This document shows, one piece after another, positions 16,578 to 38,654 of a DNA stretch of 64,000 nt (its first letter is position 1; the number at the start of each line of letters is the position of its first letter). A model generated the notes under the pieces. That model made no database searches. It had not been told where the DNA came from and saw only the letters and a program-made list of their open reading frames with translations. The stretch is from the NCBI RefSeq assembly GCF_002093665.1, contig NZ_MRWE01000005.1, forward strand, positions 62,001 through 126,000, given 5' to 3'. Both the position numbers and the translations under genes were made by a program. Source of the stretch: Rouxiella badensis (GTDB lineage Bacteria > Pseudomonadota > Gammaproteobacteria > Enterobacterales > Enterobacteriaceae).

Positions 16578-17153
16578 TTAACGACTGTGTTTGGCGTGCC
16601 TTTCCCAGTTCTCCTGCTTAGCCTGAGGCGATTTTTTAAGCGCGACATAGCAGGCTCCTGCCCCGCCGTCCTTGCCGGTTGCCACGCTGAAAGCCTGCAC
16701 CTCGTCAAGCTGCCTGAGCCATTTGGCGAGATAGCTGCGCACGATATTGGCATGGCTCTCGTCATGCCTGCCACGGCCGTGAACGATCAGCAAGGTGCGT
16801 AGATTCTGCGCCTGTGCCTGCAGAAAAAAGCTAAACAGTTCCTGACGACAGGTCTCGACCGGTTTGCGGAGAAGGTTAAGGCTGGCTTCGAGCGGATATT
16901 TCCCCTGACGCAGCTTATCCAGGACGCCCTGCTGCACGCCCGCCTGCTTATATTCCAGCGGTTCGGCGCAGTCGATGACGTCAAGAAAGCCGGTAGTCAG
17001 AATATTTTCAGGTTCAGTTACGTCCGGCGTCTGAGGCCGTGCCGCTTTTTGATGGTTTTTGAGGTAAACCACCTGATTGTTATCTGAGAGTTTGTGGACG
17101 CCGGCCATTTCCTGTGAAAACAGAAAATCATCATTTTCATCATCATTTTTCAT
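16578..17153 (-). CDS. smrA: Smr-domain DNA endonuclease SmrA (YdaL)
   Basis: A 191-residue protein with a C-terminal Smr domain. VHGRGRH carries the conserved HGxG motif, preceded by the LNLLRKPVETCRQEL helix and followed by GGAGACYVAL. The size and acidic N-terminus (MKNDDENDDFLF) match E. coli SmrA, which has nicking activity in vitro. I start at ATG 17153 because GGGAGG lies six bases upstream; the GTG two codons earlier has no room for a ribosome site. It is divergent from the glucosylglycerate operon. Confidence 0.87.
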   Translation of the reverse strand: MKNDDENDDFLFSQEMAGVHKLSDNNQVVYLKNHQKAARPQTPDVTEPENILTTGFLDVIDCAEPLEYKQAGVQQGVLDKLRQGKYPLEASLNLLRKPVETCRQELFSFFLQAQAQNLRTLLIVHGRGRHDESHANIVRSYLAKWLRQLDEVQAFSVATGKDGGAGACYVALKKSPQAKQENWERHAKHSR

Positions 17154-17445
17154 CGTCACCCTCCCGACGTTTTATTAGATTTTCACGTTCTCAAACCTGG
17201 CCGGCACCCTGAAGCGGTGACGGTCAGGCTTAAGAACTGAGTGTATAGAAAAAAGTGCAGGCTGCAATATCCTGCCCGACCGCTCTCACCGCTTCAAAGA
17301 TAAGAATCATATAACTCCCTGTTCCACAGTCTGTTATTTATCGCTCAAAAAAATGGCTTATTGATTTAGGGCTATACTTAGGCCCTGGAGTGGAATAATT
17401 CTGATGCTTGGTCGTTTCTGTTTCCATTCATTTTGAGGAGAAATG

Positions 17446-18255
17446 ATGCCGTACCTTGATGACAATCTGGTTGTATTTACTGACCTCGACGGATCGCTGC
17501 TAGACCACCACAGCTACGACTGGCAGCCAGCGCAGGAATGGTTGAACACACTGAGTGCGGCGAAGGTTCCGGTGGTTCTAACCACCAGCAAAACGGCGGC
17601 CGAGGTCGCAGAACTCCAGAGAAAGTTAGAACTTACTGAGGTACCTTTCATTGCCGAAAATGGTGCGTTGATAGGTTTGCCAGACCGTTGGCAAAAGCAC
17701 GAATCGTCGACTTCGGGGCACATTATTGGCGCCGCTTACGAAGACATTCGTCATGTTCTGGTCGCGTTACGCCAGCGCTACGATTTTGAATTTCGCGGTT
17801 TCGGTGACGTTAACGCCCAGCAGGTGATCGACTGGACCGGGCTTCCGCTTGAGAATGCCAAACTGGCCATGCAGCGCGAAGCCTCTGAACCGATTATCTG
17901 GTTTGGTAACAGCCTCGATTTCTCCCGTTTCGAAAAATATCTGCATCAAGAGAAACTGGCTCTTACGCGCGGTGGTCGCTTCTGGCACGTGATGGGGGCC
18001 GATGCAGGGAAAGGCCCGGCGGTGAAATGGCTGAGCGACTGCTACGCAGAGAGGGCCGGAAAACCCGTTGTTAGCATCGCACTCGGCGATGGCCCCAACG
18101 ATATTGGCATGCTTAATGCTTCAGATTATGCGGTGGTCATTCGAGGTCACCATGACCATAAAATGCCAGTCAAAGAAGGTGTAAACGTATTTCGCACCGA
18201 ACAATACGGTCCCGAAGGCTGGAAAGAGGGACTGGACCACCTTATCGACCGTTAA
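17446..18255 (+). CDS. yedP: Mannosyl/glucosyl-3-phosphoglycerate phosphatase (MPGP/YedP, HAD family)
   Basis: A 269-residue HAD-superfamily phosphatase. Motif I is DLDG (nucleophile D13, acid/base D15), motif II lies at LTTSKT, and motif IV is GDGPNDIGM. The cap domain and the length match MPGP, which dephosphorylates mannosyl- or glucosyl-3-phosphoglycerate to the compatible solute. AGGAG five bases upstream picks ATG 17446 over the ATG one codon earlier. It is followed after 62 bases by a GT81-like synthase, so it has a ready partner that E. coli yedP lacks next to it. Confidence 0.88.
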   Translation: MPYLDDNLVVFTDLDGSLLDHHSYDWQPAQEWLNTLSAAKVPVVLTTSKTAAEVAELQRKLELTEVPFIAENGALIGLPDRWQKHESSTSGHIIGAAYEDIRHVLVALRQRYDFEFRGFGDVNAQQVIDWTGLPLENAKLAMQREASEPIIWFGNSLDFSRFEKYLHQEKLALTRGGRFWHVMGADAGKGPAVKWLSDCYAERAGKPVVSIALGDGPNDIGMLNASDYAVVIRGHHDHKMPVKEGVNVFRTEQYGPEGWKEGLDHLIDR

Positions 18256-18317
18256 CAGATTCACGTTTTGCCCTGTGTGGTTTTTTTGATGTTCTTTTAA
18301 ATAAATTGAGGATGCCT

Positions 18318-19538
18318 ATGAGCGAATTTTATCAGGACGGTATCATTACTAATTTTCACAACCTCACGAAAAGAAAATTAGAAGAATTAGAATACGATCT
18401 GCAGGTGTTCTCGGGTCGACGCTCGATGGGGCTTATCCTCCCTTCTCTGTTCTCGGAGCTTGAAGGGCCGGCGTTGAGCAAGATTGTTGACGAGTTGACC
18501 AAGGTTCCTTACCTGGAAGAGATTGTCATTGGTTTAGATCGCGCAGACCGCGATCAGTTTCTATTTGCACGCGAATTTTTCTCTCGCCTGCCACAACGTC
18601 ACCGTATTTTGTGGAACGATGGCCCACGCCTGAAGGCGATCGATGAAGAGTTAAAGAAAGAGAACCTTTCGCCAATGGAACCGGGCAAAGGCCGCAATGT
18701 GTGGTTTTGCGTCGGTTACACGCTCGCTTCGCGCCGTACCACGGTGGTCGGCCTGCATGATTGTGACATCGTCACTTATAGCCGGGACATGCTGGCTCGC
18801 CTGATGTATCCGGTCGCGAACCCTAATTTCCACTATGATTTCTGTAAGGGCTATTACGCGCGAGTGGCTGACGGTAAGTTCAACGGCCGCGTGGGACGCC
18901 TGTTGGTGTTTCCACTGCTGAAATCGCTGCAAATCGTTTATGGAAACTCCGAGTTTCTCGAATACCTGCGCAGCTTCCGTTATCCCCTCTCCGGCGAATT
19001 CGCTATGCGTACCCACGTACTCAACGATTTGCGCATTCCGAGTGACTGGGGTCTTGAGATTGGCGTGCTGTCGGAGCTGCATCGCAATACGGCCACCAAG
19101 CGCATCTGTCAAGTCGATATCGCCGATAACTATGACCACAAACATCAGCCAATGTCTGAAGATGACGCGAGCAATGGCCTACAGCGCATGAGTATCGACA
19201 TTACCAAGGCACTGTATCGCAAGATGGCGATTCTGGGCGTGCCGATCACCAGCGAATCGTTCCGCATTCTCAAAGCCACCTACTATCGCAACGCGTTGGA
19301 CATGATTGACGGCTTCGAGCATGACGCGCGAATGAACGGCCTGAAGTTTGACCGCCACAGCGAAGAGTCGGCGGTTGAGCTGTTCTCAGGGGCAATCATG
19401 GAGGCCGGTTTGGCATTCGTCGATACGCCGAGTGAAAAGCCGTTTATTCCGAGCTGGAGCCGCGTTCAGTCGGCGTTCCCGGACATGCTGGAACGTATTC
19501 ACGATGCGGTAGAAGAAGACAACAAAGGTAACGTTTAA
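18318..19538 (+). CDS. Glucosyl-3-phosphoglycerate synthase-like glycosyltransferase (GT81-like)
   Basis: A 406-residue GT-A glycosyltransferase. The metal-binding DxD is DCD (148-150, GLHDCDIVTYSRD). GRVGRLLVFPLL, YPLSGEFAMR and WGLEIGVL resemble the acceptor and base regions of GpgS (GT81), more than the GT55 mannosyl enzymes. It should transfer a sugar from an NDP-sugar to 3-phosphoglycerate, and the upstream phosphatase then yields glucosylglycerate or mannosylglycerate. GAGG six bases before ATG 18318 selects this start. The sugar donor is inferred from motif resemblance only. A hairpin closes the operon. Confidence 0.78.
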   Translation: MSEFYQDGIITNFHNLTKRKLEELEYDLQVFSGRRSMGLILPSLFSELEGPALSKIVDELTKVPYLEEIVIGLDRADRDQFLFAREFFSRLPQRHRILWNDGPRLKAIDEELKKENLSPMEPGKGRNVWFCVGYTLASRRTTVVGLHDCDIVTYSRDMLARLMYPVANPNFHYDFCKGYYARVADGKFNGRVGRLLVFPLLKSLQIVYGNSEFLEYLRSFRYPLSGEFAMRTHVLNDLRIPSDWGLEIGVLSELHRNTATKRICQVDIADNYDHKHQPMSEDDASNGLQRMSIDITKALYRKMAILGVPITSESFRILKATYYRNALDMIDGFEHDARMNGLKFDRHSEESAVELFSGAIMEAGLAFVDTPSEKPFIPSWSRVQSAFPDMLERIHDAVEEDNKGNV

Positions 19539-19547
19539 GATAAAACC

Positions 19548-19575
19548 GGGCGTCACAGGATTTATTGTGACGCCC
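19548..19575 (+). terminator. Hairpin closing the glucosylglycerate operon
   Basis: A perfect 10-bp stem, GGGCGTCACA with TGTGACGCCC, and an eight-base loop lie nine bases after the stop codon. The T-tract is weak, so it may end transcription or protect the 3' end. Confidence 0.65.
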
Positions 19576-20206
19576 TACTGCTTAATAGATTTATCCGTTC
19601 ACAATTTTATTACATTATTCTGCCGCAATTAATCAGCGATAAATTAATAGTCATAATTTCTGCGCGTACGGTATTGTGACCCGCTGATTTAAAACCCTAT
19701 TTGATTAAAATTAATTTCAGCCGCCAGCGGTCAATAACTCCCACGAGTTATTTTCGCCATTTCACCTGCACTTATTGACACATTTCCTGCTTATGGCCTG
19801 TCAAAAATAACATTGCAATAACATCAATCCGTATTAGTACGAAATAACCGACAAACCTAAAATGTTGGCATAGAATTTGATTTCACAGCGCGTGAAAATC
19901 ACAACTTACTGAATAAAATGAATTTTAAATTAACGTCGCGCCTGCACTTATTTTGCCCGACCTGTTTACTCCGCCTGCAAAAATCGATCAACCTTTGCTC
20001 CAACCCGCGTTCCCGGGATGCAAAAAAATTGACGTAAACGAGACTCTTTTTATATATTCGCCTAAGAGTTCTGGCCGAAATGACCGCTTATTTGTCGTTA
20101 GATCAAAAAATATTTATAAAAAACCCCTTAAAAATCGTGGTTTTTAACTAAATACCTCTTTCGGGACAAAACTTACACTTATCACTCATTGCAAAAGATG
20201 TTAAAA
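19576..20206. other. Long AT-rich leader region upstream of fnr
   Basis: About 630 bases without a credible gene, clearly richer in A and T than the neighbours and with many short A and T runs. It must hold the fnr promoter. A 64-codon frame at 19953-20147 has a poor ribosome site and no family character. The region could be a silenced (H-NS-like) promoter zone or hold a small RNA, but I see no defined terminator to support the latter. Confidence 0.5.
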
Positions 20207-36900: not shown

Positions 36901-37796
36901 ATTTCGCGCTCACCGCTCATAAAGATCAGGATATCCCCGTTGCTCTCATGCCCCAGCTCGTCAACCGCGTCAAAAATAGCCTGCAGCTGGTCACGATCGG
37001 TATCATCTGCATCGTCAACGACCGGGCGATAACGCACCTCAACCGGATAGGTACGGCCTGAAACCTCAATAATAGGGGCATTGTTAAAATGTTTGGAAAA
37101 GCGCTGAGGATCGATGGTCGCCGAGGTGATGATGACTTTTAAATCCGGGCGCTTTGGCAGCAGCTGGCGCAAATATCCGAGAATAAAGTCGATGTTCAGG
37201 CTGCGCTCGTGCGCCTCATCGATAATCAGGGTGTCGTACTGCATCAGCATGCGGTCTTGCTGGATTTCGGCCAGCAAAATACCGTCGGTCATCAGCTTGA
37301 CCAGCGTGTTTTCACTCACCTGGTCGTTAAAACGGACCTTATAACCGACGGTACTGCCGAGCGAGGTTTCCAGCTCGTCGGCGATACGGTTAGCGACAGT
37401 ACGCGCCGCCAGTCTGCGCGGTTGAGTATGGCCAATCAGGCCTTTGATACCCCTGCCAAGCTCCATACAGATTTTCGGAATCTGCGTGGTTTTACCCGAA
37501 CCGGTTTCACCTGCGACGATAACGACCTGATGATCGCGGATGGCTTCAAAGATGTCCTGCTTCTTTTGACTGACCGGCAGATTGTCGGGATAGGTGATTT
37601 TAGGGCGTGACGCCTCACGTGCGCTGACTTTTTGCAGCCCCTGCTGGAGCGAAGTTTCAAGCTCTTGAGTCAGTCCCAGCAATGCCTGCGGGTCATCTAT
37701 TTTTTTTGCGCCCTGCAAACGACGTTGCAGGCGTTGTCGGTCACGTAGCATCAGCCCGTCTAGTTGTGCTGATAGTGCCGCGAGCGGTGATTTCAC
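33921..37796 (-). CDS. hrpA: ATP-dependent RNA helicase HrpA
   Basis: A 1291-residue DEAH-box helicase, near the length of E. coli HrpA (1300). Motif I is GETGSGKTT (96-104), motif II is DEAH near residue 195, then TSAT, the Q-R-x-G-R-x-G-R motif VI ([11 protein letters not shown]), and the winged-helix, ratchet and OB regions. A DUF3418 C-terminal domain follows. HrpA unwinds RNA and has been linked to mRNA processing and ribosome stalling rescue. It forms a single-gene unit convergent with ydgD and divergent from azoR. Confidence 0.97.
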
Positions 37797-37955
37797 GTTC
37801 TTGATTCCTTGATTAGAGGCGGCCGCTGGCCTTGCCTGAATAACGCTATGTTATCACAAGCTATTGAGGTTACTGAAAGTTGGAGGCGGATTTCTCAAGT
37901 GCCAGGTTATTCAAAAAATTCGAATGTAGATCTCGAAATATTGCACTATCACTGA

Positions 37956-38654
<699 letters not shown>

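Follow-up and report, generated by a model that had tools for sequence, protein, structure and literature searches.

The window analysed here is a stretch of 64,000 nucleotides of Rouxiella badensis contig NZ_MRWE01000005.1, from a genome of 4.78 Mb in 72 contigs. An earlier note on this DNA had proposed a complete two-gene operon for glucosylglycerate or mannosylglycerate. Both open reading frames are confirmed at that place as a complete two-gene unit, a phosphatase gene and a synthase gene lying adjacent and co-directional on the + strand, 62 nt apart. The features of the locus are these:

17373..17378, + strand: candidate -10 element TATACT, in the context GGCTATACTTA, about 70 nt before yedP
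17443..18255, + strand: yedP/gpgP-like gene for a HAD-IIB phosphatase of 270 aa, predicted glucosyl-3-phosphoglycerate phosphatase
18318..19538, + strand: gpgS, predicted glucosyl-3-phosphoglycerate synthase of 406 aa, GT-A fold, GT81-like
19548..19575, no strand assigned: G+C-rich hairpin behind gpgS, RNA fold -21 kcal/mol, z -4.58

The yedP-like frame may start at ATG 17443 or 17446, and its stop ends at 18255. The gpgS-like frame, which ends at 19538, is readable from TTG 18306; ATG 18318 is preferred as its start because the GAGG at 18308-18311 fits. The end point given in the earlier note, 19575, takes in the hairpin. The neighbours are smrA, upstream on the opposite strand, and fnr, downstream. 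The copy in R. silvae (L031) shows the same gene order as the window: glgX, a PBP7-like gene, apbE, smrA, yedP, gpgS, fnr, uspE, pntB, pntA. Among the best 80 of at least 580 matches to the synthase, the nearest named relatives are those of Rouxiella silvae and R. aceris, at 97% identity.

Judged by sequence, the family assignments of both genes are well beyond chance level. The phosphatase passes the NCBIfam YedP model NF002976 (337 bits, cut-off 315, E 6e-101) and the MPGP family model TIGR01486 (278 bits, cut-off 164.75), and does not reach the MPGP equivalog TIGR02461 (161.8 of 244.35 bits). Among solved structures it finds E. coli YedP (1xvi, E 3.7e-67) and Thermus MpgP (3ztw, E 5.3e-24), and the HAD motif residues D14, D16, K190, D216 and D220 are present.

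The synthase carries the motifs DCD, SGEFAMR and WGLEIG that the earlier note had picked out. It matches NF040724 (GpgS_Meth) over its whole length at E 4.9e-105, with 351 bits against a cut-off of 700, and NF010496, the mycobacterial-type GpgS, at E 1.6e-18, with 66.8 bits against a cut-off of 262. Because neither curated GpgS cut-off is reached, the window synthase represents a diverged branch. The profile search for the glycosyltransferase family that the earlier note had proposed as a check thus returned GpgS models only, both under cut-off; no MpgS model was among the NCBIfam matches, and Pfam gave no match at E up to 0.1. In the PDB, the single sequence matches mycobacterial GpgS chains at E 1.2e-4, and a profile built from 46 sequences does so at 4.7e-5; for the mannosyl-3-phosphoglycerate synthase (MpgS) chain of Rubrobacter xylanophilus the values are 0.34 and 0.018, respectively. 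No GT55 chain occurs among the eight PDB matches of the profile at E up to 10. GT55 is therefore rejected by sequence, since Pfam, NCBIfam and the PDB profile all lack a match to it; we assume that GT55 models are present in the searched libraries and take as given which PDB entries are GT55. The models matched are those of GpgS, and in the PDB its chains outscore MpgS, which upholds the reading of the enzyme as GT81-like, the family in which the GpgS_Meth group is presumably filed.

In PMC2581804, the GT81 residues are given as Lys114, Asp134-x-Asp136, a PLSGE motif, Glu232 and His258, with the lysine and glutamate forming an ion-pair network and the histidine a metal site. Alignments to the PDB chains place the window equivalents at K124, D148-C-D150, P223-E227 (PLSGE), E247 and H274; the mycobacterial chains in those alignments read PLGGE, not PLSGE. 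Across 15 aligned sequences these residues are invariant except P223 and S225. An AlphaFold2 model of the synthase, built from 46 sequences, has a mean pLDDT of 80.0. Foldseek ranks 1-29 are all mycobacterial GpgS (26 so titled, three titled only 'mycobacterial protein'), the best being 7pd5 with E 3.0e-10 and TMt 0.63. In VIA-align, the GT55-type mannosyl-3-phosphoglycerate synthase 2zu8 (Z 21.9, 316 aligned, rmsd 3.8) ties with the GpgS 5jqx (Z 21.9, 263 aligned, rmsd 3.1), so fold alone cannot separate the two enzymes, whereas the sequence matches do.

The analysis shows the two genes with their families, strict linkage, catalytic residues and predicted fold; donor, product and physiology we infer. 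The locus is very probably a two-step glucosylglycerate operon of the Persephonella/Methanococcoides type. GpgS would act as a retaining enzyme that transfers glucose to 3-phosphoglycerate from a nucleotide-glucose donor, and the adjoining YedP-family phosphatase would then strip the phosphate to give alpha-glucosylglycerate, an anionic compatible solute expected to be produced in salt stress and/or nitrogen shortage.

Sequence alone cannot decide between a glucose and a mannose donor, and a mannosylglycerate operon, in which the transferase takes GDP-mannose and its partner is a genuine mannosyl-3-phosphoglycerate phosphatase, has to be weighed. GDP-mannose is the donor of the R. xylanophilus GT81 enzyme and of GT55 enzymes, a table in PMC2581804 places the mannosyl-3-phosphoglycerate synthase 3f1y within GT81, mannosyl-3-phosphoglycerate synthase folds tie with GpgS, and the matched phosphatase models bear the MPGP name. 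Against these stand the higher ranking of GpgS chains over R. xylanophilus MpgS in both PDB searches, the restriction of matched synthase models to GpgS, and an enterobacterium, Dickeya (Erwinia) chrysanthemi, in which glucosylglycerate is cited as a major osmotic solute (review PMC11009771, citing Goude et al. 2004). We regard a mannosylglycerate operon as unlikely. Glucosylglycerate might also serve mainly as a precursor, for instance of a glycolipid head group or of a solute that is glycosylated further, as PMC2581804 reports for actinobacteria. Build-up of the free solute as cited for Dickeya speaks against this, as do the flanking genes, which vary by site (fnr, rcsA-dsrB and others); because the flanks differ, no gene of the fixed reference set tested travels with the pair. 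A precursor role appears very improbable.

As a glucosylglycerate operon the locus is of a known kind, widespread in enterobacteria other than Escherichia. The earlier note had called it uncommon in enterobacteria, a view that the counts do not support. In the window's family, GpgS relatives are present in 41 of 198 genomes, from 34 of 154 genera; for its order the figures are 71 of 247 genomes and 27 of 88 genera. Four of the 41 family genomes (G267, G341, G395, G422) carry gpgS in pieces. Named carriers among the best 80 of at least 580 matches include Rouxiella, Rahnella, Hafnia psychrotolerans, Chimaeribacter, Serratia, Brenneria, Pectobacterium, Lonsdalea, Pantoea, Erwinia, Mixta, Izhakiella, Sodalis, Kosakonia arachidis and Mangrovibacter; Halomonadaceae are also represented there. 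Queried with window positions 17000-20000, E. coli genomes gave no near-identical match.

Linkage of the two genes is strict. YedP lies upstream of GpgS, on the same strand and within 2.5 kb, in 71 of 71 genomes of the order sample and 41 of 41 of the family sample, or 107 of 107 in the union of both with broken copies included. Spacing of intact pairs is -8 to 195 nt in nearly all. At L151 (G285) the gap is about 1.4 kb and holds no stop-free frame of more than 128 codons. A tree of 88 synthases, which used nine of the 24 other-family loci and omitted the family loci L111-L183 as well as L103 and L044, places its 38 Enterobacterales rows within one starred group of 42, the remainder being two Acinetobacter rows, one record titled Martelella and one endosymbiont. 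The Acinetobacter synthases L079 and L093, inside the Enterobacterales group, look like transfers from enterobacteria. L067 (titled Martelella alba) and L048 (Enterobacter cancerogenus) have Sodalis-like and Pantoea-like synthases and gene order, respectively, and the organism names of these records are probably wrong.

Carriage on mobile elements was considered and rejected for phages and for enterobacterial plasmids. A scan of viral contigs with a single-sequence query, which detects close relatives only, gave five pattern matches and no relatives; 12 of 72,556 plasmid records match, none of them enterobacterial. Six of the 12 are Pseudoalteromonas replicons of 0.79-0.91 Mb. The 41-kb plasmid NC_007968.1 of Psychrobacter cryohalolentis K5 encodes a diverged GpgS relative at 37082-38290 (42% identity); another record of this species is given as from permafrost. 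The relatives in plasmid records are annotated only as 'glycosyl transferase' or 'hypothetical protein', often next to a 'HAD-IIB family hydrolase'.

The flanks of the window's operon offer some candidates for regulation. Each of the 16 loci that group with the window's site has TATACT no more than 160 nt ahead of yedP (at least two of these loci are one genome), against 0.8 expected from single-base shuffles; it is also found in 34 of 138 other loci, and it is absent from the output of a two-hexamer sigma-70 promoter scan. A stricter pattern, [GT]CTA[CT][AG]CTTA, occurs in six of the 16 (0.04 expected) and in 0/43, 0/17, 0/33 and 0/40 loci of the other groups, where one locus belongs to two groups and enters both counts. 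The TATACT context resembles what we take to be the sigma-S extended -10 consensus and hints, weakly, at a candidate element of that kind, which would suit an osmotic-stress gene. The hairpin fits a terminator of the - strand, on which its T-rich tail lies; it could possibly also form the 3' end of the operon mRNA.

The earlier note's statement that E. coli carries yedP with no synthase beside it is confirmed in the E. coli locus, and 5280 of 5426 complete E. coli genomes have yedP over 80% of its length or more. L184 (NZ_ABACVG020000001.1), the record that stands for E. coli here, has an unusual yedP, to which 5048 of 5292 E. coli genomes are only 90-95% identical. In the family sample, 32 of 73 YedP genomes lack GpgS. 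At all 33 orphan loci, these 32 plus G188, yedP sits between dsrB/yodD and dgcQ/yodC, as in E. coli, and the intact pair is found at the same site in Pantoea, Erwinia, Mixta, Izhakiella and Mangrovibacter loci. The shared order is dsrB-yodD-yedP-(gpgS)-dgcQ-yodC, with gpgS, where present, between yedP and dgcQ or yodC. In G422 (L130) gpgS lies in that same gap in several pieces with stops. This is the one locus of 34 with a gpgS remnant within 2.5 kb downstream; the other 33 orphans have none there.

A tree of 79 YedPs, which used seven of the 80 named loci and left out L144, L182, L183 and L103, has a starred branch (100) of 34 orphan-type rows, 19 paired rows, mostly from the rcsA-dsrB site, and one Acinetobacter row. 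The window's clade lies outside this branch, in which orphan YedPs are nested within paired ones. One outgroup row, from Acinetobacter, is placed within the ingroup, and the E. coli clade as a unit receives a modest SH-aLRT of 80 in this quick tree. The minimum number of changes to the orphan state is two, but the test does not reject monophyly of the orphans (p-AU 0.218), which leaves both one loss of gpgS and two as possibilities. On the simplest account, the pair is ancestral at the dsrB-dgcQ site, with one or two later losses of gpgS. Synteny, tree and residues together suggest that the pair is old in Enterobacterales and that the lone yedP of E. coli is a remnant left after gpgS loss.

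Residue changes were read from a paired set of 136 identifiers, corresponding to 129 distinct sequences. It includes 24 from other families, namely those with loci among 64 other-family GpgS genomes. Four further distinct sequences with the full signature described below (L074, L079, L093 and L086/L176, the last two being one sequence) bring the total to 133. Broken copies (L103, L182, L183, L144) were excluded, and L120 and L130 were not counted among the 32 orphans of the E. coli clade. The 136 paired YedPs share 29 invariant positions, and H22, Y25, R145 and G178 are invariant in 133 of 133 distinct ones. Most of the 29 are largely retained in the 32 orphans (D14, D216 and D220 32/32, K190 30/32, D16 27/32). 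Four positions are not: R145 is kept in 2 of these sequences, H22 in 5, G178 in 9 and Y25 in 12; counted over 33 orphan rows, R145 is kept in 3. Some orphans have changes at other invariant positions as well, with L20 kept in 25 of 32, D21 in 26 and P257 in 27. In E. coli (L184, and likewise 1xvi) residues 22, 145 and 178 are S, H and A, and Y25 is unchanged. By alignment, Thermus MpgP has R and G facing R145 and G178.

An eleven-residue signature, in which these four are combined with catalytic and neighbouring residues that are conserved, is whole in 129 of 129 distinct paired YedPs and in none of the 32 orphans. As a control, the paired YedPs of other families, with 37% mean identity to the window, keep the full signature in 24 of 24; the orphans, at 42%, are nearer to the window than this set. 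In the genus to which G422 and G305 belong, the loss appears to be recent and the full signature is retained, which places the residue changes after loss of the synthase. The changes share ancestry, so the 32 orphan sequences are not 32 events. Two orphans (L118 and L139, from G302 and G420) have K190I, with loss of the HAD motif lysine, and five (L113, L116, L135, L137, L141) have D16E at the second motif-I aspartate; these copies may have lost ordinary phosphatase chemistry.

The ratio dN/dS is 0.043-0.097 for orphan yedP (eight pairs, a ninth saturated) and 0.082-0.239 for paired yedP (eight comparisons, a ninth saturated), values that are rough because several dS exceed 1. For gpgS it is 0.001-0.025 (nine pairs, also rough, with dS up to 2.1). 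As estimated from these ratios, orphan yedP is not decaying and is under strong purifying selection. A conserved catalytic core, changes at recognition-like residues and purifying selection together fit a new substrate rather than a relic, and the four changed residues would be ones that contact substrate. E. coli YedP is probably a repurposed phosphatase of the glucosylglycerate pathway. We lean slightly toward the fuller statement that it is not a mannosyl-3-phosphoglycerate phosphatase and is a leftover of a glucosylglycerate operon, re-tuned to another phosphorylated substrate.

The operon would thus give an origin for yedP, which in E. coli goes under a borrowed mannosyl-glycerate name. 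It also makes YedP function testable, through possible cleavage of glucosyl-3-phosphoglycerate and a possible redirection by the changes at 22, 145 and 178. In the open-access literature no text was found that links yedP to gpgS; subscription papers lay outside this scope, so the link may be published. The open-access titles listed for yedP include none on its enzymology, a 2006 survey of E. coli HAD phosphatases lying likewise outside the scope.

A possible route of breakdown was also surveyed. Of the 198 family genomes, 40 have a YcjM-like gene; 20 of these also have gpgS, 14 an orphan yedP and six neither. E. coli YcjM is a glucosylglycerate phosphorylase. The window genome has, at L187:7404-9224 (G000:C38:20903-22723), a GH13 sucrose-phosphorylase-like gene with 48% identity to E. 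coli YcjM. It has a carbamoyltransferase gene on either side (argI- and pyrB-like by eye), and its match to a sucrose phosphorylase model stays under the cut-off. Its product could break down glucosylglycerate, to go by this resemblance.

The nearest known systems are the GpgS/GpgP pathways of Persephonella marina and Methanococcoides burtonii, for which PMC2581804 cites Costa et al. (2006, 2007). The window's locus resembles them in having a GpgS of about 400 aa and a separate phosphatase, and the Methanococcoides type in that its best whole-length model is GpgS_Meth, although the score is half of the curated cut-off. The P. marina phosphatase is presumably of the same HAD family. The window has the phosphatase gene first, whereas accession order in PMC2874817 suggests that the synthase comes first in P. 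marina. Mycobacterial GpgS, of GT81, shares catalytic residues and fold with the window enzyme, but identity across the structural match is about 20% and the mycobacterial proteins are shorter, 326-344 aa against 406 aa. The mycobacterial glucosyl-3-phosphoglycerate phosphatase belongs to another family. E. coli YedP (1xvi) belongs to the same family as the window phosphatase and differs in standing without an adjacent synthase and in having S, H and A in place of H22, R145 and G178, while Y25 is kept.
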